DNA from: Henricia sp. BOLD:AAB3569
Lineage: Eukaryota > Echinodermata > Asteroidea > Spinulosida > Echinasteridae
DNA length: 64,000 nucleotides
Reading direction: 5' to 3'
Assembly (NCBI GenBank): GCA_037783545.1
Contig: JBBELK010000108.1
Coordinates: forward strand, 1,054,001 to 1,118,000
The notes under the pieces were generated by a model. It saw only the letters and a list, made by a program, of their open reading frames with translations. It was not told the DNA's origin and searched no databases. The stretch's first letter is position 1, and each line of letters starts with the position of its first letter. Below, piece after piece: positions 2,319 through 47,618 of this stretch. The position numbers and the translations under genes are program-made.

Positions 2319-2773
2319 TTAAAGATAGTATACATGATTGGTAAACTGTTACACATAGTGTTATCCCCCTGTGTGATTGAAGATATGCATGATTAAAACC
2401 AACCTGAGCAAAAAACAGCTCCGTACTTCGTCTAACATTTGAGAAAACAGTCAAAAAAGTTTGCAGTCATTCCGCCCTAAAACCACTTCGCCCTGAACCA
2501 TTTCGCCCTGAACCACGGCCTGTGCACGAAGTGGTTTTGGGGCGAAGTGGCATTTGGGCGATGTAGTGTTTGGACGAAGTGATTTGGGGCGAAATGGCAC
2601 TTGGGCGAAATGGTTTTGGGGCGAATTAAATTTGTCATTTCTGAAAGACTATAGCACTTTTCTATAGGAAGTTTTCTACGGTCATCATGTTTATATTGTG
2701 TAAGTTAGGCGTAAATCTGTGAACTTTTCTGATTTTCGAGATTACCAATGATGTATAGGCCTACTGCCTTTAA
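2319..2773. mobile_element. TTAA-flanked MITE with CACTTCGCCC array, copy A
   Basis: Flanked by TTAA (2319-2322 and 2770-2773). The termini read AGATAGTATACATGATTGG and, inverted, AGGCAGTAGGCC then ATCATTGG. The interior (about 2485-2630) is a degenerate array of about 10-bp words, CACTTCGCCC and its complement GGGCGAAGTG, in opposite orientations either side of GGCCTGTGCACG. TTAA target sites are characteristic of piggyBac-type transposases, so a piggyBac-mobilised non-autonomous element is inferred. Other copies: 3831-4342, 17365-17529, 20569-20652, 20988-21485 and 30350-30872. Confidence 0.8.
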
Positions 2774-3220
2774 TACTTGATTTATGTTGTAAAATCTGTC
2801 ATCATTTGTTGAGGTATAGGAAATATCATGAGATTACAGTGTGTTTGTTTATTTCATTTGTGTTCAGACAAACGGGGCGTCAAGTCGGCAAACTTTATTT
2901 TGTCCATTTGCTTCAATTTTGTTTCAATGTCAAAATAAGGTATAAACCTTGAGTGAAATTGTAGCTTATTGGGAGCATGCATGGTGGTTGCTGTGGAGAT
3001 TTATAACTTAACAGTTTATTCAGATAATGGTCATTTAGTGAACCGTATAGATTCTCTTATAATTTTTTAAAGATTAGAAGTTGCACTTGCTAAAACTGTT
3101 TCAAAATTGACTTGGAGACGACTTTACTTATAGTCTATTTGCGGTTGATGCATTTATTTGCTGTAACTATTGTTTTTACTCAGTATATTCAAAATAGGTG
3201 TAATTGTCAAATTTCAAATT

Positions 3221-3283
3221 AGCACCGGCAGCCTCGTTTATAGCACCGGCAGCCTCGTTTATAGCACCGGCAGCCTTGTGGAT
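3221..3283 (+). repeat. 21-bp tandem repeat, three units
   Basis: Three head-to-tail units starting AGCACCGGCAGCC. The first two are identical; the third diverges in its last bases. A related single unit (AGCACCGAAAGCCTCG) ends the host element near 3783. Confidence 0.85.
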
Positions 3284-3317
3284 ACTTATATGACGCACAT
3301 GTCCACCCTGCGGGGTT

Positions 3318-3585
3318 CTCCTGGCGCTGTTGCCATTATTACCGCTGCCATCAGGGAATCACTAGAACCATTTTACTTAAACTAGGTGGCTGCCTGGCCA
3401 AGGCACACAACCCTATCAGCACTTGGATTGTAGCATTCCCCTTACAGAGCACTCCTGGCACTGTTGTCATTATTACTGCTGCCATCAGGAAATCACCAGA
3501 ACCGTTTCGCTTCAACTAGGTGGCTACCTGGCCAAGGCGAACAACCTATCAGCACTTAGATTGTGTCATTTTCTTGTAACAGCTC
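3318..3585 (+). repeat. 134-bp tandem duplication
   Basis: Two units with period 134 bp, each opening CTCCTGGC(G/A)CTGTTG and including CCTGGCCAAGGC and ATCAGCACTT(G/A)GATTG. The copies differ at scattered positions. Short open frames across it are produced by the duplication and are not taken as coding. Confidence 0.8.
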
Positions 3586-3830
3586 CCTATATATCGCTTG
3601 GGTTGACGAGCCAATTGAGATTGTCTTGCCCACACACAAACACGTCGACACAAGTGAGGCTCGTACATATAACCCTTCGATCTCGAGCACGGCTGTATAC
3701 CCACTAGACCACATGTATCATGATACTGAGCCACCGTATTACGTTGCGCGTCTTTTCATTAGCAAATTTCGTTTCAAACGAAAGCACCGAAAGCCTCGTT
3801 TTCGATGACAATTTGAAACTCCTCTATTAG

Positions 3831-4342
3831 TTAAAGGTAGTATACATGATTAATATCTTGAAGAATCAGAAATGTTCACAGATTTACTCCTAACTTACAC
3901 AATATAAACATGATGACCGTAGAAAACTTCCCCTGAAATGGTTTTGTCTGAAATGCTATAGTCTTTAAGAAATGAGCAAAACAATTATTTTTCGTCTCGC
4001 GAGACGTAAATTTAATTCCCCTAAAACCATTTCGCCCTGGACCACTTCGTCCTGAACCATTTTGCCCACAAACAACTCTGTCCAAACACTACTTCGCCCA
4101 AAAGCCACTTCTCACCAAAACAATTTCTTGCACAGGCCGTGGTTCTAGGCGAAGGGGTTCAGGGCGAAGTGGTTTTGGGGCGAAATGACTGTAAACCCTT
4201 TTTTGGCTGTTTTCTCAAAAGTTAGACGATGTACGGTTTTTGCTGGTTTTTGCTCAGGTTGGTTTTTATCATGAATATCTTCAATCACACAGAGGGATAA
4301 AACTATTTGTAACGGTTTACCAATCATGTATACTATCTTTAA
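3831..4342. mobile_element. TTAA-flanked MITE with CACTTCGCCC array, copy B
   Basis: TTAA lies at both borders (3831-3834, 4339-4342), and the terminal AGGTAGTATACATGATT matches copy A. It is inverted relative to copy A: the half with ACTTACACAATATAAACATG comes first. It contains the perfect palindrome CGTCTCGCGAGACG at 3993-4006 and the array at about 4020-4190. Length 512 bp. Confidence 0.8.
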
Positions 4343-4400
4343 GTTATTGCTACCAGTTTGTGTTTGATGTGCTAAAAACGATTTGGTATTTAACAAGGTA

Positions 4401-5136
4401 AAGCCCCTTTCACACTAGACGATTTGGGATACGAATCAACACGACGTAAGAATCGCATTACATCGTATTGAAAAAGCCTAGAAATCCCTAATTACCGCGA
4501 CGGAAACGACCGAAAAGAACATGTTGCGATTCCGTTACGACACTGTTACGTTACGTTACTAGTTACGACCACTTACGATTTTGATGCGAATCTTTGCGAC
4601 ACTCATATGACACTTTGCGAATGTTTGCGATCAGATTGCGACGTTTTACGATGCATTTCGATTTCTTTGCGACTTTTTGCGATCTTTTACGATCGTATGC
4701 GATGCAATTACGATTACTTGCGATTTTTAGCGACATGGAAGCGATTCTCTGTCGCGGTTTCCTTGAAATTATGACGATCACGTGACTTAATTGCATTCGT
4801 ATCAAATCGTTAAAAAAAAATTAAAAGATCGTAAAAGTTCGTATTGAAATAGTGCTGAATGATTGGTAAAGAACCTTTACAATGGCATTAGGATTATTTA
4901 CGACCTTGTTAAGACGACTTTATTACGATATCCTACGACCGGTGCGTCGATACGACCGTTTAAGAAATGTTTAAACATTCCAAAAATTTCGTAATGATTT
5001 TGCGACCAAGACGAATCATTACGATCGTTTAAGAATGTTTACCGTAACGATTGTCTTTACGAATGCCCTTACGAATCTTACGATTCAAAATTGTTAAGGT
5101 TCGTATCCAAAATTGTCATAAGTGTGAAAGGGGCTT
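4401..5136. mobile_element. Foldback MITE, AAGCCCCTTTCACAC ends, TTACGA words
   Basis: Terminal inverted repeats begin AAGCCCCTTTCACACT and end AGTGTGAAAGGGGCTT. Inside each end is a GATACGAA / TTCGTATCC pair. The whole 736-bp interior is a loose array of TTACGATNN and TTTGCGAT words and their complements, with no period long enough to be a satellite. Frames inside (for example 4594-4785) are products of the array. Confidence 0.75.
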
Positions 5137-5852
5137 CCACATTGGGCCTATAACCTATGGCCTACTACACTAATAAGCTAAAATTGAAAGGAATTTATAT
5201 GTTGATAATGGTGTGTGTACAATTAAAACAAATGTATTGTTTCACAATGTGTTTGTTTTAAATGTCCTTCCATCTGTAATTCCCTTGGAATTTCTGCTAA
5301 AAAAACCAAAACACATTTTTTTCAAAGACTATGACATTTTGACATACTGCTCGTATTTCTGCAAATTGGATCCCTCGTGGCTATTTCCGCGACTGCATTC
5401 AGTTTCTTCGTGAATTTTTCTCGCCTTTGGCATTTTTGGTAAAAACAAAATGAATCGCGATGGAAATGCTTATTGTATGGAATTGCTATTGCAATTTCTT
5501 TAAGAAAAGATAAAAAAGAAAAAAGAAAAAAAAATATGGAAAATAACTTAACAGCTATAATCATTGTCACGTTACACTGTCAGATCTGGATTTGTTTCTA
5601 AATCTTGACTGTGAGATATTATAAATATTCATTGAAAATTAAAAGGTGCCCTGAAACCTTAAGCAGGAATAGAATGCTCTACAATATTTGAAACTAAACG
5701 TAAACGGAAGAAAAATTAAACAGCAATGTAGCTCAAAAATTATTTATATTTTCAATCAAGTCACAGCACATAAAAAAATACTGTAATTTTTGGACTATTT
5801 CTTTGTCTTTATTAGGCTTGTGTATGTATTTCAGTTCACCGGTGATCCTTGG
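5137..5852. other. Unassigned A+T-rich stretch
   Basis: Only homopurine and A-rich runs (about 5505-5540) stand out. No exon signals or repeat termini were found. Confidence 0.3.
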
Positions 5853-6320
5853 CATGTCCACACGGAGGCTGTTCCCTCGAAGGAAACTTGAAGGTTCCAA
5901 ACCCTCGAGGAAAACTCGGGGGAAACTTGGAGGCTTTGTGACCGTGTGGACGCACTCGGAGGGTTATTCCCCCGAGTTTTCTCCGACGATTTTCCCCCTA
6001 AACAAACTTGGGGGAAACTTGGGGGAAACTTGGAGGTTTCAAACCCCTTGCAATGAGACTCGAGGGAAACTCTGGGGTTTGTGCCATGTGGTCGCACTTA
6101 CCCTGGAGGGAATGCATTATACCGTGTACCCGGCATTTCCCTCGAGGGAACGAACTTTCCTCGAGGGAAATTTGGGGGGTTGTGATCGTGTGGACACAAC
6201 TCGGGGGCGGGGGTGAGGTGGGGGCGGGTTGGGGGGTTGTGAGGTGGGGGAGGCGTTTATACTCTTTTATACATTTTTATAGCCGACATTCCATCCTTCG
6301 AGAGGTTGTGACCGTCTAAA
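5853..6320. repeat. Word-array region, CCGTGTGGAC / CTCGAGGGAAAC
   Basis: Degenerate units built of GACCGTGTGGACGCACTCGG, AAACTTGGGGG and CTCGAGGGAAA recur at about 5853, 5940, 6085, 6184 and 6308. The first is inverted (TGTCCACACGG) relative to the later ones. This resembles the other foldback word-array elements, but its exact ends are not clear, so it is reported as a repeat. The 137-codon frame at 5803-6216 is a by-product. Confidence 0.55.
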
Positions 6321-6906
6321 CACAGCTCCTGTCTCCGACATTTGCAAAGTGATCCTGTTACGATATTTGAGCCATGCTCGTTTGTGTCTCTCATATCGGT
6401 TAATAAACCCGTGTCAGGCTTCGATTTGGGAAGATAATAATACTATTTTGTTTATTATGTCAGAATTGGTACCGTAATTAAGCTATGCTATTAACGTGTT
6501 ATTAACGCGAAAATTTCTTGATAGGAGTGTACAGAATCCTTATTTGAAGACCTCTGGACAGATACAATAAACATAGGTTGTATATATGGTCCAACAATTT
6601 TAATCGGCCATTTGACTGGAAAAAATAGAAGATAGAAGTGGTTCCAACTGTCCGATGCAATGAATCTGCCCAAGACCATTTAAATAAGAAAACGATAATT
6701 AAATATGAATTTACATAATTGTGCATTTTTAATGCATGTGCACACGCAATGTTTTCTTTTACAACGGTACACATGCCCTCATTTGATTAGGCGCCTGAAT
6801 GTGACATTATGGGTCCGTTTTCCATGCAGTATAAAATAGTATAACCGGCCTAAAATAAACAGTGGGCCTGCACATTTCCTTGAAAGCATAGACAAATTTC
6901 TTTTTT
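6321..6906. other. Unassigned A+T-rich stretch
   Basis: Nothing beyond short open frames on the minus strand (6491-6774) without family resemblance. Confidence 0.25.
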
Positions 6907-6950
6907 GGGAGGGGGGTGGGGGGGGGGAGGGGGGGGGGGGGGGGGGGGTG
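6907..6950 (+). repeat. G-rich tract including 20 consecutive G
   Basis: Almost pure G over 44 bases, with an uninterrupted run at 6929-6948. It could form G-quadruplexes and may be length-unstable or misassembled. Confidence 0.9.
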
Positions 6951-7056
6951 CTGTTGTAGATGAGGTACTAAGCTGACCTACAGGTTGATTCTGATCACAC
7001 ACACCCTCAATCAGCATGGGCCTAACGCCATTGGTAACATTTTTTCTAATCATGTA

Positions 7057-7305
7057 AGGCGCGAGGTCACAATTGAAACGGTCTGAATACCGGGAAACGG
7101 TACATAAACGATACACCGTTGCACGGTTTTGAGTGAGCAAGCAAACGGTGCAGCTGGTCTGGCCAAACGGTAGATAATTAGCAGTGTTCAACACACTCGT
7201 GTTCGCTGAACAAACGGTTTTCTGCCCACAGACAAACGGTTCCAAAAGGGATTAACTCGAACCGTTTACCGGTATACAGACCGTTTGTATTTTGACCTCG
7301 CGCCT
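7057..7305. mobile_element. Foldback MITE, AGGCGCGAGGTCA ends, AAACGGT words
   Basis: Terminal inverted repeats AGGCGCGAGGTCACAATT and, inverted, AGGCGCGAGGTCAAAATA, each followed by AAACGGTCTG. The 249-bp interior is about ten scattered AAACGGT / ACCGTTT words in both orientations. The subterminal GAGGTCACAATT is shared with the unrelated-looking element at 46728-47618. A TA precedes the left end. Confidence 0.75.
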
Positions 7306-7345
7306 AATCTATCTTTAAATCATAATTTTGAAAACTTGGACCTTT

Positions 7346-8964: not shown

Positions 8965-9654
8965 CAAAGGTATTTTGCGGCAGTGACAATCATCCCAAAA
9001 CTTACGGATGGTATCTGGATGGCTAAAGGTTTAAAAATATATATTTTATTATGCAGCAGCAACTTTAAAATCCAGAAATTCCATTCACGAAGCAGCGCAT
9101 TTTTGATAAAAAGAATCCAGCCGCTGTTTTTCCTCGTATAGACAGCGCCTACGGCACGCAGTCACCGCCACGGTCGCGTAGAGCGGTAAAACGGGGCACG
9201 GCCAAGGGCTAATCTTCGCCGACTTAGGCTGTTTTGGTGAATAGCTCGGGGATAATCTTCCAACATTTTTGTCGAGGAATTCTCCCGCGCTTTTTTATGT
9301 TGGACACCGTGAGATTTGATAAGAGGAATTATACGGTGGGGATTGAAAGGTGGGGGAAAATTCGCTTCTTTTCATCTGGCTTAATTTGTAAAAAATACAG
9401 GGCTAGCTTTTGTTTGTTATTTTTTGCGTACCATTGAAAAGAGGTGACGATATATTTCACTTCGATGCACCAGAAGTGCAGTGAACGTATGCCTGCATGT
9501 GTGTGGTTTATAAAAGCAATTTAATGGTAGATTTTGTACATTCTGGGTATTTCTTGATTTTGTACGATAACATCCCTGAGTAAATTTGGTACAAATTTAA
9601 CAAGAAATGTACAAGAAGAAACATATCCAATTACAATAAAATGCAATTACAATA
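8965..9654. other. Unassigned
   Basis: There is a small CpG-rich patch at 9130-9210 (GGTCGCGTAGAGCGG). No exon or element ends were recognised. Confidence 0.25.
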
Positions 9655-9957
9655 AAAATTGGCTTTGCGCCAAAGCTGTCGATCCAAAATTGGCTTTGCG
9701 CAAATTGCGCAAAAGTTGTCGAACAAAAATTAGTTTTGCGCAAAAGTTGTCGATCGAAAGTTGGCTTTGCGCAAAAGTTGTCGATCCAAAATTTGTCCTG
9801 CGTCAAAGTTGTTGACCAAAAATTGGCTTTGCGCCAAAGTTGCTCACCGAAATTGGCTTTGCGCCAAAGTTGTCGATCAAAAAGTAGCTTTGCGCCAACT
9901 TTGCTGTCCGAAGTTGTTGTTGTTGATATAAAGTTGGCTTTGTGTTAAAGTTGTGAC
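9655..9957 (+). repeat. Degenerate ~30-bp array, TTGGCTTTGCGCNAAAGTTG
   Basis: About ten imperfect units of 27-33 bp carry the core TTTGCGCCAAAGTTGTCGAT. The central TTGGC...GCCAA and TTGCGCAA motifs are self-complementary, so single units can fold. Units at the right end are more diverged. Open frames on both strands across it are array artefacts. Confidence 0.8.
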
Positions 9958-13439: not shown

Positions 13440-14090
13440 GCCCATTATGCAACCCTTTTTTCACGATTTAACACGATTTACCACGAATTCTTCACGATTT
13501 GGAAATGTTGTGAATGTTGGGAAAATCATTTTTTTGCGATTTATTGCGACTTCTGACTTCTTAAGATATTGGAGTTATACACTATGAATTATCGATTTTT
13601 ATTAACAACACGTGACGTTTTGAGCGGGTCTGCTAAAGTCGTGACAAGAAACAAGTCGTGAGTAATCGTGAGGATTTAGTAAAAGGCGTGAGGATTTCGC
13701 GGAATGTCCGTGAGGATTCCGCGAGAAGTCGTGAGTACTTCGCGAGAAGTCGCAAAGGCCACGATTTTCACAACACCGTGCGGCCTTCGAATTTCCACGA
13801 ATTTCAGCAGTACGGCCCTGATAATGGCAAAATGGTGTATCTTCTATTGTTCTCTATTCAAGATACACCAGTTTGCCATATCACGGCCGAGTAGGCCCTA
13901 TACATCGTGCGACTTCACTCACAACTACTCACGATATCTCACAACATCGGAATCTAAAACAACTGACCGAAATCAACCAAGTTTTCACAAATTACCACGA
14001 CTTCTCACGATTAACCCTTGCAGACCATGCGACTTTTCATGTCGTGAACGAAATGTTCATCGTGCGAAATTCTTAGGTGTCGTATTTAAA
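13440..14090. repeat. CACGATTT / TCGTGAG word array with central hairpin
   Basis: CACGATTT and CACGAATT words lie on the left. AATCGTGAG, CGTGAGGATT and GTCGTGAG words lie in the middle, and CTCACGAT words on the right, so orientations alternate as in a foldback. At 13813-13889 an inverted repeat pairs CGGCC, ATGGCAAA and TGGTGTATCTT with its downstream complement. No defined TIR ends were found. The 134-codon frame at 13704-14108 is explained by the array. Confidence 0.6.
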
Positions 14091-14401
14091 CATTTTCATA
14101 ATGCGTAAGCTGTAACCTTTAGATTTATCTAATAAAAATACAAATTTCTATAAACAATATATCGGACGAAAACTAACTTATAGTCTATGCCTTTTCTAAT
14201 GGAAAATTCGTTTGATGGACAAAGTGCCTCTTCTCCATTTCTGGATCGATCTTCCAAATGGCTTTGGAGGTAACAAAATACTTTATACATTACGGCAAAA
14301 CAATACAGTTCTGGCTAAAATGTAAATGTCTCCAGCCTGCTATTCGAGTAACGCGATACCCAAGGTAGTGTGCACACAGGTCGGTTCAGTGACCTTCTTA
14401 A

Positions 14402-15030
14402 AGGGACACACCGGTTTACATTATGTAGCGATCTAGCATCCTTGACAATAATTGTTCGATGGTCGTTGTGAAAAGAAGAAAAAAAATCAAAACGTCACGT
14501 AATTAACAAGAAATGTTTTAAATTAACAAAAGAGACAAATGTTGGGCTATATACGCTTTACCAGCCGTCGCGATGTATTATGTATCATGTGTTTGTAAAT
14601 AAAGGTGGCGTTCGATATGGGTCGACACGTGTTTAACCTCGTTTCCTTGTTTTTACTGACTCATCACACCTTGCATGATCCCTCAGGTCAGCGCTGACTC
14701 GAGGAAGCACCTCGAACGCAAATTGTTGGTATCTTTAGCGCCCTTAATAGGCCTATGATGTTCGGCCTTTTCTTCGGATATTATTCATCGCCGCGAAGCG
14801 AAGACGCGAAAATCTGAGAGATTCTCTCGTCCATATCAACACCAAGAAACTCTTCTTATGAATCTGGTTTGAATAAATCACATGACCTTGATTTTAAAAA
14901 AAAATGCTAAAAAACAGCCAAATTGGTGGTTTCGTTTCAGGTTCTCTTCAGTCTATTTCGGAAAGACTTTCAGAATCATGTGTGCGTCTATTTCAAGCCC
15001 AAAATAGCCCAACAAAGCCGGTATGTCTCT
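14402..15030 (+). mobile_element. TTAA-flanked MITE, AGGGACACACCGG ends, copy 1
   Basis: TTAA at 14398-14401 and 15031-15034 flank termini AGGGACACACCGGTTTAC and, inverted, AGAGACATACCGGCTTTG. A 770-bp copy lies inverted at 33170-33939, also between TTAAs. It shares long stretches such as GGTGGCGTTCGATATGG, the TTGCATGATCCCTCAGG block and GCACCTCGAACGC. The TTAA site suggests a piggyBac-type mobiliser (inference). Confidence 0.85.
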
Positions 15031-15350: not shown

Positions 15351-15377
15351 ATAATAGAGTAAGAGGTCGAACCAAAC

Positions 15378-16018
15378 AAGCCCGACGCGCTTTCCGACAC
15401 GTCATCCGATACGCTTCCCGACACAAATGACCCCAGTTGTGTCGGGAAGCAGGGGTGTGTCGGGGCAGTGGGTTCAAGATTTAGACGCACTCCACGACAC
15501 AAACACGACATATATAGATGGTGTGGGTGTGTGTGTCGTGGGGTTTCCGACACTTTTGAACCCGTTTAAAAATCGTACGACGCAACCACGTCACCGACAA
15601 AGGCAGCTACGCGCGTTATCACAACTACATCAATTTTGATGGCAGATGACAAAAACGCGCACAGACTCTCGGGTGTGTGGTTATGACGTCAGTTGTGTCG
15701 TACTCTTGGCGTGCTTTTTGTCGCCCACGATACAATGTACGCTTGCGACACACGAGAGTGTGAATCGACCTCCAATCGCGGACGTCCCTTTGTTCCTCTT
15801 TTGTTTGGACATAGTCTATTTTTCCTTACTCTCGTTGGTTTTGTACAGGAGCGAATCGAGGACGTTCGCTTGCCAATCTTTGTTAGACCTCCCTAAAACG
15901 TCCACGATTGTTTGGGAGAACAAGCGCACGAGACAGATGGTCCACGATGTGTCGGCGCGTGTCGTGGACCATCTATGTCGTATTTGTGTCGCAAGCGTGT
16001 CGTGGGCGTGTCGGGCTT
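15378..16018. mobile_element. Foldback element, AAGCCCGAC ends, CACGACAC words
   Basis: Begins AAGCCCGACGCGC and ends GCGTGTCGGGCTT. The interior is filled with CCGACAC, CACGACACAAA and their complements, with left-to-right reversal of orientation. A 12-bp-arm hairpin (GATGGTCCACGA) sits at 15936-15973. A large 124-codon frame inside (15646-16020) is not coding in my reading because it runs through the array. Confidence 0.65.
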
Positions 16019-17364
16019 AGTGGGCTCGGCCCCTTAATGTAAGGCTAATACCGAACAGTTGACGGCATAAAGGGCCCTATTGCCGAAGATGCCATACAAT
16101 TTACAGTTTCGACCTGTCTGAGATTCCTGACCAAATAGTATTTTTTTTCTTCAAATTCCAACCGTCAGTAATTTTATTTTTGTATATATGCAAATTTAAA
16201 GTGCGCCATAAAAAAGTACACGTTTTAAACGTGTACACGTTAAGTGTACACGTTAAAACTACACGTTAAAAAAAAACGCTGCAAAATGCTGCCTTCAAGG
16301 GGTCCAAATATAGGCATTTTGTCATAAATATCATTGCTTTGCTCAATCGCTCAAAATGACCCTTTCCGTACTTTTTGAGACTTTATTGTCAGCCCTTAGG
16401 GATTGGTTGCTACTTTATTAAGTCTAATTTTTTTTCTCTCAAAATACTAGGCTATTATCGCCCATATTCACACACTTCCTTACTCAATAAAAGAACAGTT
16501 CATCGTTTCCCTTTTGGGAACTTGGGAATTTAAAAGGAAGAGCCTGTAGGTTCTTTCAATTCGGAGGTTTTTAGCAGGAAGTTTTTGGAAACGCCGCTGG
16601 TTGTAGGTCCCTGTTCTCGCCAAATCTTTTCCCGCCAAATCTTCTAGTTTAATAAGCGCACCATTAGCGCGCGTCAGCTCGTCCGAAGCACTCGGGGCGC
16701 AATCTAAAATTAATTATGCACAATAATATAACGTGAGATGTGTGTCGTGCAAGCGTCCTGTGTTTTCAAGAATAGTAAACGTATATTCACAAACGATGTG
16801 CGACCGATTTAGAAGAAATATGTTATTTTCTCAAATAACATGGCCGTGTTATCAGACGACGATGCTCGTTCGTCCAGACTCTCAGTAAACCTTTTTAGTC
16901 TATGCATCAAAGTATGAATTTGACCCGTTTAGCTCATGTATAGGACCTTGTTTCTTGAGTATATTTCCTCTTTAATGCCTTTCTGAAGACACCACATTAC
17001 TGAAACCGTGTCAAAATTATCTGGCTATACGTCTTGAATACGAGTCTATGGGAAGTGAGCAAGTCGATACGTATAACGTCTAACATTGACTTGTCTGCTG
17101 CCACCAAACGTCTCATAGGGTACCTTGCATGGATAACGTCAAGACTGAACACGCCGTAAAAGTACATTGTATATTATATCAATCTGTGGTGACCTGACCC
17201 ACACCCTCTCGAGCCCGAGCGCCAAACTGCAAAACATGACAGCATACATGAAGCCCACGCAAACAGATTTTACAAGTACCAATATGTTACAAAACAGCGC
17301 TGTATGTACATGTGCTAGTACCTAGGAATTTAAGCAACCTGGCAATTGCAAGTGTTCGTCTCTT
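16019..17364. other. Unassigned, with a small ACGTGTACACGT cluster
   Basis: At 16213-16275, overlapping GTACACGTTAAA words form a short palindromic cluster. The only other motif is an isolated E2F-like site (listed separately). No exon evidence. Confidence 0.3.
16628..16639 (+). promoter_or_regulatory. E2F-type site TTTCCCGCCAAA
   Basis: A full match to the E2F consensus half-site, in a CpG-containing pocket followed by AGCGCGCGTCAG (16657-16676). No gene start is evident next to it, so function is uncertain. Confidence 0.35.
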
Positions 17365-17529
17365 TTAAAGTTAGAATACATCATTGGTAATCTCGAAAAT
17401 CAGAAATTTTCACAGATTTACACATAACTTACACAATATAAACTTCCCCTGAAATAGTTTTGTCTAAAGTGCTATCGTTTTTGAGAAATTCGTCTTAGCA
17501 TAAGACGAAAATTCACTTCGCCCCAAGAA
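17365..17529 (+). mobile_element. CACTTCGCCC MITE, truncated copy E
   Basis: The left TTAA and terminal AGTTAGAATACATCATTGG are present, followed by TTACACAATATAAAC and the hairpin CGTCTTAGCATAAGACG. The copy stops after one CACTTCGCCCC word. Confidence 0.75.
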
Positions 17530-19642: not shown

Positions 19643-20395
19643 TACACTCTAAAAAAAATCTGGTTAAATTTCACCAGAGTCTGGTTGAAATTTCACCAGA
19701 TTCCTGGTCCGTATACCACCCACTCTTTCCTGGTTAATTTCACCAGGATTTCCTGGTGAATGTACGTCAACCAAAATCCTGGTAAAAAATACCAGGACAC
19801 ATTGGTGAAATTTCCTGGTTATTTTCTACGACATTCCTGGTTAAAGTTATCATGATTCCCTGGTGAATTTGTTGAGGCCCTCTCACGATCCACTTCCGGC
19901 AATGGCACCAGACTCCTGAGAACCCTGGCGTTTAGACTAGTTGCGAATTTACCATATGCATAGGCTACTATCGCTTCGTCCGTTCCGCAAACAGAGACGC
20001 TAATTGCGTGAACCAGACGTTCTTTGCTGCAGGATATGTCTCAAGATTCAACCTAGGACTCAAGAGTCGCTTCTAGGGAATCAGAACTTACCCAAAAAGA
20101 GCCTTCCAAGAACCCCTCGAATAGTGCTTTCGGCCTGGGGGTAATCACAACTAAGCAGCGTAACAGCCATGGTTAGCACGCCGTAGAAACAGGACTTTCT
20201 ACGTCCCCTACGCGCATGCGTAATTATGCAGATTTATTTCACCAGATTTATGTTGAAGTAATTTACCTAAAACCAGGATGATAATACACATGGTTTGATC
20301 ACAACCAGTATCATGTTGATATGTTTGGTGATAACCAGTATAATGTTAATCTATGGTTCACCAGGAAATTTTCACCAGAGATTTTTTAGAGTGTA
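19643..20395. mobile_element. Foldback MITE, TACACTCTAAAAAA ends, CCTGGT words
   Basis: TACACTCTAAAAAAAATCTGG at the left pairs with ATTTTTTAGAGTGTA at the right. The outer ~150 bp of each side are arrays of CCTGGTNAAATTTCACCAG-type words, inverted between the two sides. The centre (about 19880-20220) is GC-richer and lacks the word. 753 bp, no transposase. The terminal octamer is shared with 23746-24005. Confidence 0.8.
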
Positions 20396-20568: not shown

Positions 20569-20652
20569 AATAAAATTATTTTTCGTCTCAGCATGAGACG
20601 AAAATTCACTTCGCCCCAAAACCATTTCGCCCTGCACCACTTAGCCCTGAAG
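20569..20652 (+). mobile_element. CACTTCGCCC MITE, internal fragment
   Basis: Contains the hairpin CGTCTCAGCATGAGACG (20584-20600) followed by AAAATTCACTTCGCCCC and two further array words. Both ends are missing. Confidence 0.65.
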
Positions 20653-20987
20653 AAAAACGAATGGGAGTTAAAACTGTTTGCCACAATTCCAGCTTGAATT
20701 GTATGTTTTTCCTTTAATTTTCACATAAACACCGCCCTTTAATGGAAAGAACATTTAAAAGGTAAAAAAGGGCAGCTTCCCTTTGAAAATGCCTTGGTCC
20801 TACTTTTAATCTATGTACACAGTACAAATTAAAACTGTCAAAAGCGAACAAAGAACACAAAAAAAAACCCCACATCTACAAAAATATCCACAATTACGTT
20901 TACCATAATTATTACGCCAAAGCAACCGTATACATCTTTCAGTACAGTGAGTGACAATCGTTATTGACAAGTCTTGCAGCCAGTGAA
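20653..20987. other. Unassigned
   Basis: A+T-rich; nothing recognised. Confidence 0.25.
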
Positions 20988-21485
20988 CATTATTGGTATC
21001 TCGAGGAATCGGAAATGTTCACAGATTTACACATAACTTACACAATATAAACACGATGACGGTAGAAAACTTCCCCTCAAATGGTTTTGTCTGAAGTGCT
21101 ATAGTCTTTGAGAAATTAGCAAAACAATTATTGTTCGTCTCGCGAGACGTAAATTCATTTTGACACAAAACCACCTCGCCCTGGACCACTTCGCCCTGAA
21201 GCACTTCACCCAAAGGTAATTTCGCCCCCAAACCACTTCGTCCAAACACTACCTCGCCCAAATGCCACTTCGCCCCAAAACAACTTCGTGCACAGGCCGT
21301 GGTTCGGGGCGAAGTGGTTTTGGGGCGAAGTGACTGTAAACAATTTTTTTGACTGTTTCCTTAAACGTTAGACAATACGGAGCTGATTTTTGCTCAGGTT
21401 GGTTTTAATCATGTATACCTTGAATCACACATGGGGATAAAACTATTCGTAACGGTTTACCAATCATGTTGTATACTACCTTTAA
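20988..21485 (+). mobile_element. CACTTCGCCC MITE, copy C
   Basis: Same orientation as copy B. The left border is eroded (starts ATTATTGGTATCTCGAGG); the right border is intact with TTAA at 21482-21485. It holds the palindrome CGTCTCGCGAGACG and about twelve array words between 21170 and 21340. Confidence 0.75.
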
Positions 21486-23745: not shown

Positions 23746-24005
23746 TACACTCTCAGAAATAATGGTTCAAATCTGCACCCTAATGGGTGCTTATCTTTGA
23801 TACAATAGCAGCACCCCTGTAGGAGCAAGTGTGCACCATGTGAACACGATTTGAACCTTGAAAGGAGCGAGTCTGCACTTTAGGGGTGCACACATGTTCA
23901 CATGGTACAAATTTGCTCCCATAGGGGTGCAAATATCCTCCTATAGGGGTGCTGCTATTGTATCAAGATAAGCACCCCAGTTGCACCCTAATTTCTTAGT
24001 GTGTA
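23746..24005. mobile_element. Foldback MITE, TACACTCTCAGAAAT ends, GGGGTGC words
   Basis: TACACTCTCAGAAATAATGG at the left pairs with ATTTCTTAGTGTGTA at the right. The inside consists of AGGGGTGC, TGCACCCTAAT and GTTCACATGG words in both orientations; TACAATAGCAGCACCCC and its complement frame the inner part. 260 bp. It interrupts unit 1 of the tandem duplication. Confidence 0.8.
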
Positions 24006-28771: not shown

Positions 28772-29074
28772 TAATGTATAGCAGGGAAATTACCGTACGA
28801 CTTTGAGGACTTGTCACGTGGTATTCAAATTATCTCTGGGCTCATCTCGGCCCGATCCGTCAATAGTCATACGCCCTCGCTTCCGCATTGGCGTCTAGTC
28901 ACTTATACAAACTCCTTATCATGCACTCTCTGCTTCGAGGACTGACCGCGTGACTCAGTGACACGATTTTAGCGCCAAAATGACGTCAAACTTCAAATTG
29001 TCGCTGTTTGACTGGTAATTAAAGCTACGGTATGGTAAAATGGCTTAGACATTTTTACATGCCTCGATTTAAAG

Positions 29075-29240
29075 ATAGATTACATTATTGGAAAACTTTT
29101 AAAAACATGAACAACAGCATCAAATAACTAAAGAATAATGTTGATAAACTGCTTTGTAGAAATTTCAGCTACATAGGGGCAGGAATACTTCAGAAAACAT
29201 GAACAATCCATGCATGGTTTTTATGTTAATGAATGATCGG
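29075..29240 (-). repeat. Dispersed ~260-bp repeat, partial
   Basis: Reverse complement of the right half of the family at 24583-24841 (TAAAGAATAATGTTGATA, GTAGAAATTTCAGC, CAGAAAA, CCATGCATGG, TTTTTATG). Confidence 0.7.
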
Positions 29241-29256
29241 GGGAGTATACAAACTG

Positions 29257-29327
29257 TGCCTTATAGCTCAGCTGGGAGAGCCTCTGCCTAGTGAGTCGGA
29301 GGTTAGGGTTCGAATCCTGATAAGGCC
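29257..29327 (+). tRNA. tRNA-like sequence, probably a SINE head or tRNA pseudogene
   Basis: A 71-base cloverleaf candidate. The acceptor arms TGCCTTA and TAAGGCC pair at six of seven positions. T8 and A9 follow, then D arm GCTC/GAGC around AGCTGGGA, an anticodon-arm stem CCTCTG/CGGAGG, and a T arm with the canonical GTTCGAAT (box B). The anticodon loop would be ten bases (CCTAGTGAGT) and the T stem has a mismatch, so this is unlikely to be a working tRNA and I assign no amino acid. A tRNA-derived SINE head is the better reading. The adjoining CCCTTACGATTTTTCTCTC could be its body. Confidence 0.45.
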
Positions 29328-29381
29328 CTTACGATTTTTCTCTCACCCCAAGTTTACTTAGTAATTGGATCATGACATTCT

Positions 29382-30349: not shown

Positions 30350-30872
30350 TTAAAGATAGTATACATGATTGTTCAACTGTTACAAATAGTTTTATCCCCG
30401 TGTGTGATTGAAGATATGCATGATTAAAACCAACCTGAGCAAAAACCAGCTCCGTACTTCGTCTAACTTTTGAGAAAACAGTCAAAAAAGGGTTTGCAGT
30501 CATTTCGCCCCAAAACCACTTCGCCCTGAACCTTTTCGCCCTGACCACGGCCTGTGCACGAAGTGGTTTTGGGGCAAAGTAGCATTTGGGCGATGTAGTG
30601 TTTGGACGAAGTGATTTGGGGCGGAATGGCACTCGAGCGAAGTGGTTTGGGGGCGAAATTGCACTTGGGCGAAGTGGTTTTGGGGCGAATTGAATTTGTC
30701 TCATGAGACGAAAAATAATTGTTTTACTCATTTCTCAAAGACTATAGCACTTCAGACAAAACCATTTCAGGGGAAGTTTTCTACGGTCATCATGTTTATA
30801 TTGTGTCAGTTAGGCGTAAATCTGTGAACATTTCTGATTTTCGAGATATCATATCATGTATACTGCCTTTAA
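30350..30872 (+). mobile_element. TTAA-flanked MITE with CACTTCGCCC array, copy D
   Basis: TTAA at 30350-30353 and 30869-30872, same orientation as copy A. The array lies at about 30500-30690 and the hairpin GTCTCATGAGAC at 30698-30709. The longest open frame of the window (192 codons, 30153-30731, minus) is this array read as Pro/Arg/Lys/Phe repeats and is not a gene. Confidence 0.8.
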
Positions 30873-38011: not shown

Positions 38012-38280
38012 TCGAGTCCGAGTCCGAGTCTCGAGTCATTAACCTCGAGTCCGAGTCTCGAGTCTCGAGTCTCGAGTCATTATAGCCTCCAGTCCGAGTC
38101 CGAGTCACGAGTCAATTGCCTCGAGTCCGAGTCTCGAGTCATTAGCCTCGAGTCCGAGTCTCGAGTCTCGAGTCATTATAGCCTCCAGTCCGAGTCCGAG
38201 TCACGAGTCAATTGCCTCGAGTCCGAGTCTCGAGTCATTAGCCTCGAGTCCGAGTCCGAGTCACGAGTCACTTGCCTCCT
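38012..38280 (+). repeat. GAGTCC/GAGTCTC satellite with ~100-bp higher order
   Basis: CGAGTC hexamer variants (GAGTCCGAGTC, TCTCGAGTC, CACGAGTC) build two larger units of about 96-102 bp, each containing ATTATAGCCTCCAGTCC and GAGTCAATTGCC (38043-38144 and 38145-38240). The plus-strand frame across it reads as Ser/Glu/Leu/Arg repeats (SPSLES, SESESRV) and is not taken as a gene. Confidence 0.85.
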
Positions 38281-38308
38281 GGGGGGGGGGGGGGGGGGGG
38301 GGGGGGGG
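38281..38308 (+). repeat. Homopolymer of 28 G
   Basis: It directly abuts the GAGTCC satellite. True length is doubtful in any sequencing technology. Confidence 0.9.
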
Positions 38309-38339
38309 TTGATCGTGTGTAAATTATCCTGTCTACGCT

Positions 38340-39226: not shown

Positions 39227-39300
39227 AACCTTGTAGACCCTTTTTACAGGCGGCCAAAACGGGGGCAGTCACATCGCTATGGCCGTCGGTGCAAGGGGTG

Positions 39301-41516: not shown

Positions 41517-41553
41517 CGAAGAAATTGTAACGACGCTTAGCAGAGTAGAAATA

Positions 41554-41836: not shown

Positions 41837-42884
41837 CCTCGCTTAAAATTCCATTTGTGATGTTTAGACGCTTGGTGGCAGCAGACGCCATTGCCTACTG
41901 GTACCCGATGTACCATGAGCTGTTGCGGCATGCATTCGGCTGAGAACCACTGAACCTGTCTAGAGACCGCCTAGGGTTGAACCACACGATATAGTCTGAC
42001 TTGAAAGTGATCTTTCCAAAGTGATTGGTCTATCATTTGTTCTGCACACGTCACTTGCTCTGTGCTGCATTCAATAAACCTCTATTCTGGACATGAAAAA
42101 CAGTTTTACTCTAATGAATGTCTCGATGAACATTCCTACGCACAATACAAACAGCCGTACAAAGCCATCTCGATCATTCAAGCAAACAAAACTAAATTGT
42201 GTTTGAGGATGGTCACTGTATAAAGCCAGATTACACCATCGGTTAAAAAAAAGGCGAAAGATAGTCTATAAGACAAGGATAAGCACTTAATTGAGTTTCA
42301 GTGCTGTATTGTCCGTCATGGAGAAAATACGAGCAAAGGAGAAGTACACGACTCTTATACACTGCGTGTAGACCGATCCAGATTTTGTATCTCCTGGGAT
42401 TTGTTAAAACAGCACACGGTGTAGGCCTGTCGATGTAAAATCAACAGCTTATATTAAAAGACAATCTCTCCAATCGTTGGGAAAGTGCAGATTAAAATGA
42501 CTTGACCTCTTTCCGATTTGTAAAATGACTAGCGGGAATAATTATGGTAATCGCATTAGTAGTGCTCCTGCTTATTTGTGCCGGGCGCTATCGCAAGCGA
42601 AAACCTGGTAGTGCAATTTATGAAAGTGGTATCAGCTACGGGGGAGCCTTCGCGGCGACGTAATGTGGAGGAAGGACTGGTGCACTCTCTATAATGTCTA
42701 ATCCAGAATATCTCATTCCAATCACGCAACAATCTTTCACATTTCGAAATTATTCGAGAAAGAATTTGCTTTTGTGGGATAAAATAACGTCTGGCGAAGA
42801 TTTTCTTTATAATGTAATATTTTACTTATTCCTTGGGGTAATTCAATGTAAACTAGAGGTATGACGTTTGTTGTTACAAACGCC
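41837..42884. other. Unassigned
   Basis: No repeats shared with the window. A tiny frame at 42319 (MEKIRAKEKY...) is too short to support. Confidence 0.25.
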
Positions 42885-42962
42885 AGGTGATCGGGTTAAA
42901 TGAACATTTTGTGATGAATTTCAGACGTTGTTATCACCTATGGAATGGCAAAAATGGAAGTT

Positions 42963-43085
42963 CAGCAGCCGATTTCACGAAACTTTACGCAATTGCGCAA
43001 GTCCACTTACGCCATTACTTGCGCAATAGCTTATGGCGTAAGTGGACTTGCGCAATTGCGTAAAGTTTCGTGAAATCGGCTGCTG
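42963..43085. mobile_element. Perfect 53-bp-arm hairpin element
   Basis: Arms 42963-43015 and 43033-43085 are exact reverse complements (begin CAGCAGCCGATTTCACGAAA), with a 17-base loop. The lack of any mismatch in 53 pairs indicates very recent insertion or ongoing arm homogenisation. Non-coding. Confidence 0.85.
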
Positions 43086-43198
43086 TATACACTAATCCGG
43101 TAACTAATATCTCCTCCCTGCATATCCGCCATAGCTGGGGGTTGATAGCTTGCACCGTTTTGAGATATGAATTGTTGAAATAATAACCTTTGAAATCT

Positions 43199-44430
43199 TG
43201 TAATGTGACACCTGTGACGACATCATGACGTCACAATTTTGTGCACAAATTGTTGAACAATATGTTGAACATCAAGTTCTTAAATGTGGCGAAGGAATCA
43301 TACCAATATCTGTTGTAGTTTTCAAGATACAGCATTTTAAAACATCTCAGCTCCAAATTTGCGTAATTTGACGTACATTACGTAACCACCGTCCATGTAA
43401 TGACGTCACCAATGGTATAGTCAAAAGGTCCACATGTGTGAAAACATTTCGTTCCGTAGAACTATGGTCAAATTCCCTACCACTTTGGCTCTATTTGCAT
43501 TCAAAGTGCTAAACAAGTGTACATTTTCGAACAACTTCCGGTTTGGACCGGAAGTAGGCGTCACACAGGGGTCATGACATCGTATGATTTGTTCAGTTCA
43601 TTTAGACTTATCATGTTGTGAAAGAATTGTTCAAGTATCTATTACGGTTCTTGAGATATGAATTTTGGAAATAATAACCTTTGAATTTTTGTAATTTGAC
43701 ACCTGATGACGTCATGATTACGTCACACTTGATGCCATCGTGATACTATACATTCTGGTGAAAGTCTGCCGTAGGGCCTATGTCTGTATCTAATTTACTA
43801 ACGATTCAGCTTGGTTTGATAGGCATTGTTGCTGGTAAGTGTAAAAACTGAGATTCTCAGTTTCGTTGAACTTTGACCTCCAATTGACCCCAGAAGGAAG
43901 GGTCAGATGAAAATGCCCACACAAAGAAAATTGTAGCACAGAATGTCATCTGTAAACCTGCCAAATACGAAGATCCTGGGTCACGTGGTTTTCAAGACGG
44001 AAGTATTTTAAAATATGCACATTTTGTTTTTTTGGGGGGTGTAATTTGATACTTGATGACGTCACGATGACGTCACGCTTGATGCCATCATAATATTATA
44101 CACGCTGGTGAAAGTCTGCCATAGGACCTATGCCTGTACTTAGTTACTTAAAGATTCAGCTTGGTTTGATGGGCATTGTTGCTCAATAAGTGCAAAAATT
44201 GCGATTTTCGTTTTCGTTGAACTTTGACCTCAGATTGACCCCAGAAGGAAGGGTCAGATGAAAATGCCCACACGAAGAAAATCGTAGGCCATGATCTTAT
44301 CTATAAGCCTGTCAAATACGAAAATCATGGGTCACGTGGTTTTCCAGACGGAAGCATTTTAAAACATGCATATTTTGGTCATTTTTGGGTTGTAATTTGA
44401 TACCTAATGACGTCACAATGACGTCACCCT
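43199..44430 (+). repeat. ~345-bp tandem array carrying seven CRE octamers
   Basis: Units starting GTAATTTGA(C/T)AC recur at 43691, 44041 and 44391 (spacing 350), with a more diverged start at 43199. Shared blocks: GGGTCACGTGGTTTT-type, GACCCCAGAAGGAAGGGTC, AGATTCAGCTTGGTTTGATG. TGACGTCA occurs at 43226, 43401, 43707, 44057, 44068, 44408 and 44419. Confidence 0.8.
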
Positions 44431-44600
44431 TGTATGCACATCTTCACATTGGGGTTGATGTTCCTACAAAGTTTCAAGTTGATAGCTTGAACCGTTTTGA
44501 AGAAAAGCTCTGGAAACGTTTGAGTGGAAAAAGAAAAAGAAAAAAAAAAAAGAAATCGTACGAGAGTAATAGGTGATCGGGCTGTTGGCCCGATCACCTA

Positions 44601-46274
44601 ATTAATAAACGTGCATAAAACAGTAATTTGTCGAGTAATACAAGACGGAAGATGATTGAAGTTTACAAAACAATGTGCAATTTCGAAACAGGCTTTTCGT
44701 TAAAGGAGCGCCCAGATCACATTGTTTAGCTCCCCATTTTTCCAAGGGTGTTGAGATTTTGATATCATATCGAGTGTCATATACCATTCTGAAATTGTGT
44801 ACTCTCAATCTGTCTGTTTTCAAGAATATCGTAAAAAAATCCCATGTTTTGTAAACTATAATATAATCTGGTTTATAGGCCTATACATAAAGCTGCAGTG
44901 CAGTGATTACACCAACCTTTTTGTTTCCATATCCAAATTGGAGATTTGCAAATTTCATGTTTTCTTCCCGTGGATAGTATTTTGGGGAGGTATTTTATAT
45001 GAATGATTTTATATGATTGAAATAAATGTTCTGGAAATATCTTAACAACTTCTTTAATAAATGTGTTAACAAAGAAAAGCATCATTGCATTGAAATAAGA
45101 CGCCAGTATTTGGAACCTGCTGTTGACATGTAATTCTTTTGCATTTGTCGACGACTGTTTGCGACAAACAAACAGTCCCGTTTGATTATGGTATTTACAG
45201 CTTCTCTAAATAGCTCTCTCTGTAATGATGTTTTCACCAAATTGCTTCTATAACTGACACATTGAATCCATTATTCCGTGAAACCATTATAGAACTAATA
45301 CAGCAAGCGGGTAAACTTGCACAACACCACCAAAACAACCTAAAGTGGTTCAAAAACAATTGCACTATACAGAAAGCAAGAATTTGCTATTTTTGTGTAA
45401 GTTCCAGTTTTGACCTAAATCTTCTCTGTAATGGAGAGATTTTGGGTAAACCCTTGCAATTTTATATGCCACCTGTTACGAAGATTCAATCCTGACATTT
45501 CCAACGGATCTAAATAGGATTCTGTTGCCGGGTTTACGTCATTGCGAGCAAAACCTCACTGCACTTTTATATCAGTTTTAAAATAGAAGGTAGAAATAAG
45601 TATATAGAGTGTGTATTATATTTTGTTGCTGACTGACTGACATCACTGATCTATATACGGTGGACTGTGCACAACAACAGTTGGCTATGCGAGAATTGAT
45701 GACTATGCGCAGTCTCAGCAAGGCATTGTGACAATCCTTTTAAAGTAAGATGGCGGATGGTTCCTTCACTTAGAGTTGCTCAACCAGTCCATTTTATATA
45801 GGTCAGTGACTCGTAGGCCTATCCGTTTCTAGAAGATAATTGTCAACCCTGAGGCCTGTTTCAACTTGCAATTTCAAGACCACTTTTGGAACGAAAATGC
45901 CTCCCAAAGTAGTCTGGCTCCATTCCAATCACTAGGTTGCTTTTTACGGAACTAATTCAGGGGACAACATTAGGCCTAAACATGACCTCTTCTGTCACTC
46001 TCCCGAATACAACAATCGCTGAATCAATCTACGCAGAACGCGTCCGCGCGTGTTACTTAATTTACCGGACAAAAGGATGCGTTATTTTCTACACAGCAAC
46101 TGCTAGCGTACCTTTTACAGTTTTTACTGGTCACTGATTCATTCACCGAGCATGGCTGCCTTCCTCGTGGGGTCGAGCGGCTCGCCAGCCCCCGGGAAAT
46201 GAAATAAAAGCACGGCGAGACATAGAGAGGAAATGAAGGTCGTAATGAGGGGAAGTGGAAAGGATGCGCCTTAC
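44601..46274. other. Unassigned, longest blank stretch
   Basis: A YY1-like AAGATGGCGG at 45747-45756 near CpG DNA is the only motif noted. Frames at 44797-45085 and 45262-45495 lack support. Confidence 0.25.
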
Positions 46275-46438
46275 CTTCCCCATTCGTCAGGTGACTCAAA
46301 AGGTCATTACGTGTACTTTCAGCCAAATTGCTGTCTGTGTAGGCCATTTGGCAACTAGCACCGTGTCGAGGCGCGTTTTTAGTCGCAATAAAATCGGCGA
46401 ATCCGTCCATTTTTGGGGAGAATATTTAAACGTATGAT
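46275..46438 (-). CDS. Candidate minus-strand exon with start codon, product unknown
   Basis: Read on the minus strand, an acceptor (CTCCATTGCAG) precedes 28 bases of leader, an ATG in good context (CCAAAAATGG, codon at 46410-46408), and an open frame of 45 codons plus one base to a consensus donor (GAAG then GTAAGG, 46274). The peptide starts MDGFADFIATKNAPRHG and ends near LLSHLTNGEG. It is hydrophilic, with no signal peptide or membrane segment, and I do not recognise it. It lies in a CpG-richer pocket with a TATA-like ATATTTAAA just upstream of the ATG. The frame stays open beyond the donor to 46057, so the splice model is inferred. No partner exon was found in the window. Confidence 0.35.
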
Positions 46439-46727
46439 CTGCAATGGAGACCGATTTCATTGATAAAAGTGTGATATTCGATGGCAGAGAGTAACGTCCC
46501 GCCCAGGTCGCGTTCACTGCTTTGACAACGGTTCACGCTATACTTGTATGGCGACGACGGATATGTCCATTCATTTTACACAGAAGCCACAAGGGAAATA
46601 TTTTCCGTGCATTTTTCTGTTACAACGATTACAAAATAACAGGAAGGACAGTGTATCGCTATGAGAGAAGGTATTAGCAAACCAGTAAAAGTAATTATTC
46701 TCCATACTTTTTAATATTTTCTTCTTG

Positions 46728-47618
46728 TGAGGTCACAATTCTCTGTGTGTTACGTGTTAGTGTTAGTTTAACAGATTTGTTAACACGGCATTAATCTCGA
46801 CCTCTAATTGAATGTACAGGTTAACACCATGTTAACAGATCCGTTAACACAGTGTTAACACCATGTTAATTATCTACACTACACAGGGCGAAGTCACAAT
46901 TCTGTGTTACGTGTTAGTGTTAGTGTAACAGATCTGTTAACTTAATCAGAATTTTGACCTCGATGTTAACATGGTGTTTGGGACGTGTTATATTACATCT
47001 CATGTTAGTTCAACAGCTCCTGTTACAGATCGTGTTAGGGTAACAGATCTGTTAACAGATCTTTAAGTTAATCTGAACGAAGTGCACGGGTGGTGTTAAT
47101 TGTGATTATTTTAGAACTTTTGTAATTCTCAATAAATTGAGGTTCAGTTTTCAGCACAACTTATAAATGTGTTTGGTCTTGCATTAAGACATTTTTGGCT
47201 CCGTGAAGATTCTGCAAATTTCAATCACTTAGTGGTTAAGCTCGTGTAACACGGATCGGAGGTAACAGTTCTATGTTAGTGTAAGTGTTGAAAGTCGTGC
47301 AGAACCCTACCGCCTTGACATTTCCCAAGACGTCGGGTCAACATATCTGTTGACAGATATGTTACACTAATACTAACACAATTTCCCAAGACGCCGAGTT
47401 AACAGATCTGTTACCAGATCTGTTACACTAACACTAACACGGAGAATTGCGACCTAAATCGTATCTGCGGTTCTGCGCACGACTTTCAACACTAACACCA
47501 ACTCGTCCTGTTAACACGGTGTTTGTTCTGAGGTCACAATTCCAATTAAGATAACAGATCTGTTACAGATCTGTTAACACTAACAGTAACACGTAACACA
47601 CACATAATTGTGACCTCA
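46728..47618. mobile_element. Foldback element, TGAGGTCACAATT ends, GTTAACAC words
   Basis: TGAGGTCACAATT at 46728 and AATTGTGACCTCA ending at 47618, each followed inward by TGTGTGTTACGTGTTA(G/C). The interior is packed with GTTAACAC, TTAGTGTTAG and ACAGATCTGTTA words in both orientations, and further internal copies of the terminus (AAGTCACAATTCTG near 46891; GAGGTCACAATTCC near 47531). 891 bp, non-coding. Shares the terminal GAGGTCACAATT with 7057-7305. Confidence 0.85.

Follow-up and report, generated by a model that had tools for sequence, protein, structure and literature searches.

A 64,000-nucleotide stretch of the Henricia sp. BOLD:AAB3569 genome (contig JBBELK010000108.1, positions 1,054,001 to 1,118,000; hereafter the window) contains DNA transposon ends in which short terminal inverted repeats (TIRs) enclose arrays of a short word, with a different word for each family. 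We infer that these words are probably recognition arrays for proteins encoded by the elements themselves. Arrays of this kind also lie beside transposase genes elsewhere in the genome, in elements designated H423 and H455. In H423 and in one window family (B), the words recur about once per helical turn, with a period near 10.3 bp.

Word arrays in the window

The initial annotation had described, at several loci, short TIRs enclosing degenerate arrays of one word. Shuffle tests, a blind scan and TIR detection confirmed that these arrays and TIRs are real. With at most one mismatch allowed, the family A word CACTTCGCCC occurs 31 times in the window, compared with a shuffle mean of 1.87, and none of 100 shuffles reached this number. 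Twelve stretches, including one ordinary minisatellite, were tested with 8-letter words, and in every one the best-word count was higher than in any of 40 shuffles; with 7-letter words, one copy of A merely tied the shuffle maximum. A blind scan of 400-bp segments (n = 319) revealed 27 that exceeded the shuffle maximum by at least 2. Eighteen of these lie at loci that had already been named and nine lie elsewhere, and two arrays had been missed altogether, one of GAGGGAAA at 5851-6327 and one of TCACGATT at approximately 13440-14100. TIRs were found at the word elements. Minisatellites at 9654 and 38019 scored as high as the word elements in the blind scan, so a sequence can be enriched in a word without being an element of this kind.

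Each element had been said to have its own private word. Every terminal family does have its own word, but the privacy is only largely true, since exact words were counted 58 times in their own elements, once in other elements and 28 times across the remaining 56.8 kb. The words had been described in both orientations. In most arrays they run in a mixture of directions or mainly in one, and a single orientation switch was seen only in A (4/4 window copies and 8/8 genome loci, one of the latter being a window copy). The words of B run 12 forward and 1 reverse, then 9 forward and 4 reverse, and Fisher tests gave no significant left/right switch in the stretches to which they were applied (p 0.077 to 1). 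The elements are as follows, with the strand in brackets (a dot where none is assigned).

2319..2773 (+), family A, copy A1, word CACTTCGCCC; TTAA ends and a central array with 3 forward words followed by 7 reverse ones
3831..4342 (-), family A, copy A2, in the opposite orientation; TTAA at both ends
4401..5136 (.), family B, word TTACGAT, TIR AAGCCCCTTTCACACT; non-autonomous
4566..4744 (+), lattice of 17 CGA words inside B, period 10.33 bp
5851..6327 (.), family X, word GAGGGAAA; its end TGGCATGTCCACACGG resembles the H423 end (12/19)
7057..7305 (.), family C, word AAACGGT; TWA target duplications in genome copies
13440..14100, approximately (.), array N of TCACGATT words; array only, no end boundaries assigned
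15358..16037 (.), family D, words CACGACAC/CGACACA; TTAA-like ends
15758..15928 (.), multicopy repeat lying inside D but unrelated to it; no word array
17365..17525 (+), family A fragment
19645..20393 (.), family E, words CCTGGT/ACCAG at both ends; CACTCT TIR, TA target duplication
20600..20660, approximately (+), family A fragment
20988..21485 (-), family A, copy A4; left end truncated
23748..24003 (.), family F, word GGGGTGC; CACTCT TIR, TA target duplication
30350..30872 (+), family A, copy A3
46728..47618 (.), family G, words GTTAACAC and AACAGATC; TIR TGAGGTCACAATT

A lone terminus like that of family A, with 3 mismatches, is located at 29069-29089. The one open reading frame (ORF) of B that was tested gave no Pfam match. 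Part of the middle of E (approximately 19961-20230) recurs elsewhere in the genome, and the middle is common to other repeats. Overlapping the TCACGATT array, the region 13610-14500 has 14-bp inverted ends ACGTGACGTTTTGA flanked on both sides by ATTAACAA, and is possibly another element with an 8-bp duplication.

Arrays beside transposase genes and their helical phasing

The genome (740.7-Mb assembly, 2104 contigs) was searched for the PIF/Harbinger transposase domain. With 150 of the 606 candidates scored, this gave 151 reported matches, and we selected ten transposase loci of different groups. One of these, L078, carries H423, an element of approximately 2.1 kb with further copies at L088 and L089; inside the element these are 96-100% identical to L078 per 100-column bin, apart from one L089 bin at 80%. 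H423 contains a 423-amino-acid (aa) ORF with a DDE_Tnp_4 domain (E 6e-31), has the TIR TGGCACAGTCACACGGCCA, and is flanked by TAA/TAA in two of the three copies read by eye and by TAA/TTA in the third. Its DDE_Tnp_4 transposase and TWA target mark it as a PIF/Harbinger-type element. Words of the forms TCCGTA, TCCGCA and TACGTA flank the ORF on each side, with best-word counts within 800 bp of 22 on the left and 17 on the right (shuffle maximum 9 each). One other ORF, of at least 120 aa, lies within the left array. When the genome was scanned with the exact H423 TIR pattern, 29 inverted pairs and one single site were found, the closest pair being approximately 1.97 kb apart, which shows that the family moves together with its arrays.

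The transposase of H455 (loci L079 and L086) is 54% identical to that of H423 over 312 residues; before residue 92 of one and residue 71 of the other the two cannot be aligned. The word of H455, CGGCGGAT, is CG-rich and unlike that of H423, and is enriched upstream of the ORF at both loci (9 versus 6 and 10 versus 8). One H455 end, AGCCCCCTTCCCACAT, matches the B end at 14 of 18 bases, which 1 in 100,000 shuffles equaled, and for the X and H423 ends 78 of 100,000 shuffles were as good; the anchoring of both pairs was chosen by us. A short motif is therefore repeated inside the ends of transposase-bearing elements, on both sides in H423 and upstream in H455, and such arrays belong to transposase-bearing elements. 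This tells against the assertion that ordinary miniature inverted-repeat transposable elements (MITEs), being derived from a transposase gene, do not look like the elements of the window, as intact H423 has arrays on both sides and H455 on at least one.

The domain HTH_Tnp_4 was absent from all three loci with CG-word arrays and present at all seven others (Fisher 0.008 by locus, 0.028 by family), in a set of hand-picked loci from related families in which L087, counted as array-less, has an excess of an AT-rich word (11 versus 9). The structure of the H423 transposase predicted with nine of the ten transposases aligned had a mean predicted local distance difference test (pLDDT) score of 66, with residues 1-50 below 50, and no relative was found in the PDB by sequence. 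Downstream of H423, at L078:5601-6000, a cluster of the word GGCGAAAT (10 versus a shuffle maximum of 6) looks like a family A copy. The PIF/Harbinger-type transposase at L083:811-2226 matches THAP at its N terminus (E 2.5e-5) and has no word array.

Helical phasing is clearest in B and H423. In B, the 17 CGA words at 4566-4744 are spaced 10 or 11 bp apart with one gap of 21, and a line of period 10.33 fits all of them with a deviation of at most 0.53 bp; with the gap of 21 split in two, 1.6% of random gap orders were equally regular. This block was picked after inspection. A 3-mer scan of the whole window, which serves as a correction, gave P=15.4 at the B block and no more than 8.0 anywhere outside B. 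The majority sequence of 19 B copies has 17 words over 165 bp at a period of 10.29, with none missing. Spacer columns of the B consensus match at chance level (0.335 versus 0.353 expected), and adjacent units are no more similar than others (0.33 versus 0.38). The CGA words alternate with T-rich columns. The word positions in the two arms of H423 gave periods of 10.35 (p 0.0025) and 10.30 (p 0.0005, the floor of the test).

A 3-mer spectrum gave helical-band z values of 11.4 in B, 9.5 in the left arm of H423 (where the strongest period is 9.9, and 10.3 is second) and 28.3 in the right. The band was weaker in G (6.9), N (6.4), F (5.8) and the right arm of H455 (5.5), and it was unremarkable in A3 (1.2), C (-0.2), E (2.3), X (2.5) and D (3.3), although another test of periodicity had returned p 0.0017 for C near 9.8 bp. 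Three control stretches scored 2.2 to 2.6. A 31-bp minisatellite scored 9.3 and also carries a 10.2-bp signal; it lies at 9654-9898, has the core TTTGCGCAAA, and spans approximately three helical turns per unit.

Target sites and the growth of the arrays

In a first look at the genome we found 5212 candidates for A, 242 for B, 642 for C, 182 for E, 247 for F, 1291 for G and 177 for X, and scored 40 per family; the 1261 candidates for D are dominated by the unrelated repeat nested in it. The window elements are multicopy DNA transposons of several kinds, not one class. The initial annotation had placed them in one class of foldback elements, and this single class is rejected because target sites differ between families and are of at least three kinds (TTAA, TWA and TA). 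For A, TTAA was present at the left end in 8/8 loci and at both ends in 6/8 (one being a window copy). The ends of A read AGATA, AGGTA or AGGCA, which is not the terminal AGGRR of T2-MITE/Kolobok elements, and A therefore was not filed as a T2-MITE. The target site of D is probably TTAA-like, judging from the window copy and one other. Of 30 C copies fetched, both exact ends were located in 14, and 11 of these have identical TAA or TTA duplications; this 3-bp TWA site is that of PIF/Harbinger and not the 8-bp target duplication of hAT/Ac. Identical triplets flank 4 of the 9 B copies in which both ends were found, and 5/9 have TWA on both sides; the window copy is flanked by TAA/TCC. The target site of B is probably TWA, as in PIF/Harbinger. 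TA is present on both sides of 3/3 E and 5/5 F copies, and the left ends of these copies (3/3 and 5/5 read, one window copy each) begin with CACTC, not CACTA. TA is also the target of superfamilies other than CACTA.

A shared terminus of C and G was not confirmed: the window copy of C has GAGGTCACAATT, as in G, but the majority of 30 C copies have GAGGTCAAAATA, so the link is weak. At 11 loci (L036-L039 and L041-L047), B matches covering query positions 175-717 lie inside longer, mutually similar regions, some of them with A; these regions are likely to be segmental duplications. Pattern scans of IMG/VR with the B and C ends returned 8 and 1 loci, respectively, which had no word arrays and were judged to be chance matches.

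The arrays are of two types. Flank identity beside the words is raised in A, X, F, E, G and N (0.36-0.54 compared with approximately 0.26), as expected of duplicated units or of palindromic words. The larger array gaps between the four window copies of A (15, 16 and 32 bp) are whole units, and part of the right arm of H423 is a 20-bp tandem unit in which growth by duplication is visible. Word amplification, which had been proposed as an active process, is favored by this tandem unit and by the gain and loss of whole units between A copies. In B and C, spacers were not repeated along with the words. C has 8 exact 7-mers with random, irregular spacers, and its flanks are at chance level (0.273 versus 0.251, with 12% of null draws as high); the flank identities of B and D are intermediate (0.31 and 0.29). 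A captured satellite was rejected as the source of the B and C words, which recur without spacer similarity.

A rise of word number with the age of a copy had been put forward for testing. Across 19 copies of B, word number falls with divergence (Spearman -0.41, p 0.084), as do words per kb (Spearman -0.46, p 0.047), a trend that loss of CpG words by mutation alone would also produce. The CpG columns of the B words stand at 0.903 compared with 0.945 for the rest, so that CpG sites decay faster, and CG to CA or TG are the commonest changes at word sites. Together with the dissimilarity of spacers and units, this faster decay indicates that the lattice did not arise by duplication followed by even decay. 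It also suggests that single inserted copies of B are not under selection. C is 249 bp long in 23/30 copies and F is 256 bp long in 35/40 scored matches, both among best-scoring copies, which favor equal length.

The common mechanism originally suggested was a single process, template switching at hairpin ends, that amplifies words in different terminal families. Some hairpin character of the word elements is real: A3, B, C, D, E, F and G, the seven representatives folded, were each better than every shuffle (z -4.5 to -17.1), and the single orientation switch of A also would fit this mechanism. We halved the elements to remove the doubling due to inverted repeats, and counted a half as enriched when 0/60 shuffles reached its count. 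Only 1/34 halves from 17 hairpin-like elements of the window was enriched, which argues against template switching, compared with 9/22 halves from 11 word elements. The nine lie in six elements (B, C, D, E, G and X); the test misses the four A copies and F. The strongest hairpin in the window, an almost perfect one of 451 bp at 53820-54270 (z -37.7) that was used as a control, is without a word array. Moreover, copying would have carried spacers along, and the words of B and C are without them; the mixed or mainly single orientation of most arrays does not fit either. We regard template switching as highly improbable.

The sole enriched half (CGCAATT) is the left half of a 123-bp perfect inverted repeat at 42963-43085. 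A Tc1/mariner-type remnant at 57547-58625 has long inverted ends and no word enrichment, and its ORF at 57753-58400 (-) has a DDE_3 match (E 3e-8).

Elsewhere in the window, an array of CGAGTCCGAGTC at 38019-38308 is followed directly by 28 G, with no TIR seen. A 351-bp unit is duplicated in tandem at 43690-44442. A tRNA-Thr (AGT) gene or a tRNA-derived repeat is located at 29256-29329.

Recognition arrays and alternative explanations

In general, the window elements resemble MITEs of teleosts and sea urchins. Transposon ends are known to carry private words; here the words are unusually dense, and in B and H423 they are helically regular. In PIF/Harbinger elements, a Myb-like protein of Harbinger3_DR binds a 9-bp subterminal motif (PMC9710019). 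The likeness extends to the TWA target, the DDE_Tnp_4 domain in H423 and H455 and a short motif near the ends. Instead of a few sites, however, the arrays described here have tens of words and helical phasing, and no Myb-like partner gene was identified in H423, although no search for one was made. CACTA subterminal motifs are family specific, with divergent binding proteins presumed to match them. As in soybean Tgmt*, the motif is short, lies in both orientations and has many copies near the ends (PMC2613891). E and F further share CACT-type ends and 2-bp TA duplications, within the 2-3 bp of CACTA, but begin with CACTC. The THAP domain of Galileo binds multiple sites within repetitive ends, for which its authors suggest a role in specificity (PMC3688188); the TIRs of Galileo/Foldback elements are long and repetitive, whereas those described here are short and the word orientations mixed. 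Ac transposase binds AAACGG hexamers cooperatively (PMC3260210), and this hexamer is contained, in both orientations, in the C word AAACGGT. C differs from Ac/Ds in its TWA duplications and unrelated TIR, and the resemblance may be chance. A shares TTAA targets, ends beginning with AG and an internal repeat array with T2-MITE/Kolobok elements (PMC6004289), and differs from them in its terminal pentamers. In IS1535 (IS607 family), a filament of the transposase starts to form at helically phased motifs that lie near the end on one face of the DNA (PMC6188088). This is a bacterial serine transposase with four 9-bp motifs, compared with 17 to 40 words in eukaryotic DDE elements here, and it was the sole precedent found in a search aimed at helically phased transposase sites, which is no proof of absence from print.

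The precedents of Ac, CACTA, Galileo, Harbinger3_DR and IS1535 lead us to read the words as probable recognition arrays. The reader would be the DNA-binding part of the transposase or a second protein comparable to the Myb-like one of PIF/Harbinger, and word binding would help this protein to find and pair the element ends. The window elements, consisting of ends and words with no recognized gene, are non-autonomous and presumably derived from transposase-bearing elements. Words would multiply by small in-register duplications, as seen in A and the right arm of H423. In B and C they apparently were gained singly, without spacers, which would fit selection for sites during transposition. The placement of words on one DNA face about once per turn in B and H423 is what a cooperatively assembling protein would need. 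A more specific version, which we offer tentatively and consider doubtful, is that one PIF/Harbinger-type clade, with DDE_Tnp_4 and without HTH_Tnp_4, has ends that are recognized via long one-face arrays of 17 to 40 private words, spaced at roughly one per helical turn, and that seed a transposase filament. Transposases 54% identical would then read different words, as a fast-diversifying recognition code, with the short word-filled elements as its non-autonomous users.

Several observations weigh against these proposals. The 3-mer spectrum shows no helical phasing in A, C, E or X. The H423 word is enriched inside the ORF as well (12 versus a shuffle maximum of 8), no short H423 derivative with the exact TIR appeared in the genome scan, and the 800-bp test found no enrichment downstream of the H455 ORF. 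CG-word arrays occur at only 3 of the 10 transposase loci, in two families. Structure prediction left the H423 N terminus unresolved and no DNA-binding domain was identified, no fold search having been run. None of the window families yielded an autonomous partner, although for C, A, D, E, F and G no search was made. For B, 64 end matches were scanned and two pairs approximately 2 kb apart were fetched, neither of which is autonomous: L090 comprises two B pieces and an A-like insert, L091 comprises B and approximately 1.2 kb of other DNA, and no clear transposase ORF was seen by eye in either.

Alternatively, the periodic words could shape chromatin or bend DNA, through nucleosome positioning or intrinsic curvature, without any sequence-specific reader. 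The 10.3-bp period of B and H423 would be expected of such a role, and so would the alternation of CGA words with T-rich columns in B. Alternation of CG and T-rich sequence of this kind occurs in nucleosome-favoring DNA. The internal sequence of mPing may act through nucleosome occupancy (PMC9921582). However, bending needs no private word for each family, A, C, E and X have no helical period, and C keeps its 8 exact 7-mers despite random and irregular spacers, all of which makes this explanation unlikely. The arrays also might be functionless short tandem repeats that grew within MITEs by slippage or unequal exchange. The 15-, 16- and 32-bp variation between A copies, the raised flank identity in A, X, E, F, G and N, and the decay of inserted copies as neutral DNA are consistent with this notion. 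Such repeats have been reported as Xstir in a Xenopus T2-MITE (PMC6004289) and in pearl/DTC84 elements of bivalves (PMC5139131). Neutral growth does not account for words that recur in B and C without spacer similarity, for adjacent B units that are no closer than distant ones, for a B lattice that holds a non-integer period, or for words in both orientations and beside transposase genes, and we consider it improbable.

Finally, an anti-silencing protein encoded by the element, rather than the transposition machinery, could be what binds the words. In Arabidopsis, VANDAL elements carry family-specific tandem motifs to which VANC proteins bind (PMC5735166), and the formal pattern is alike: a short, private, dense motif in each family, with fast turnover between related elements (PMC5735166, PMC10398659). 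The commonest changes in the B words, from CG to CA or TG, also would be in keeping with methylated DNA. VANDAL elements are much larger, and their VANC motifs occupy noncoding regions and share one orientation, whereas the words described here are mostly in both. H423, moreover, shows its 423-aa transposase ORF and just one other ORF of at least 120 aa, that in the left array, which was not scanned. An anti-silencing role is very unlikely on this evidence.

Read as recognition arrays, an odd sequence pattern can be put to experimental test. Transposons that look intact and recently mobile carry a word beside the gene of its probable reader, and a sister family with a half-identical protein carries another word. 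This opens tests of how transposase specificity changes and of selection on site number and helical phase during transposition. It also opens the question of why small elements of unrelated superfamilies fill with private words.

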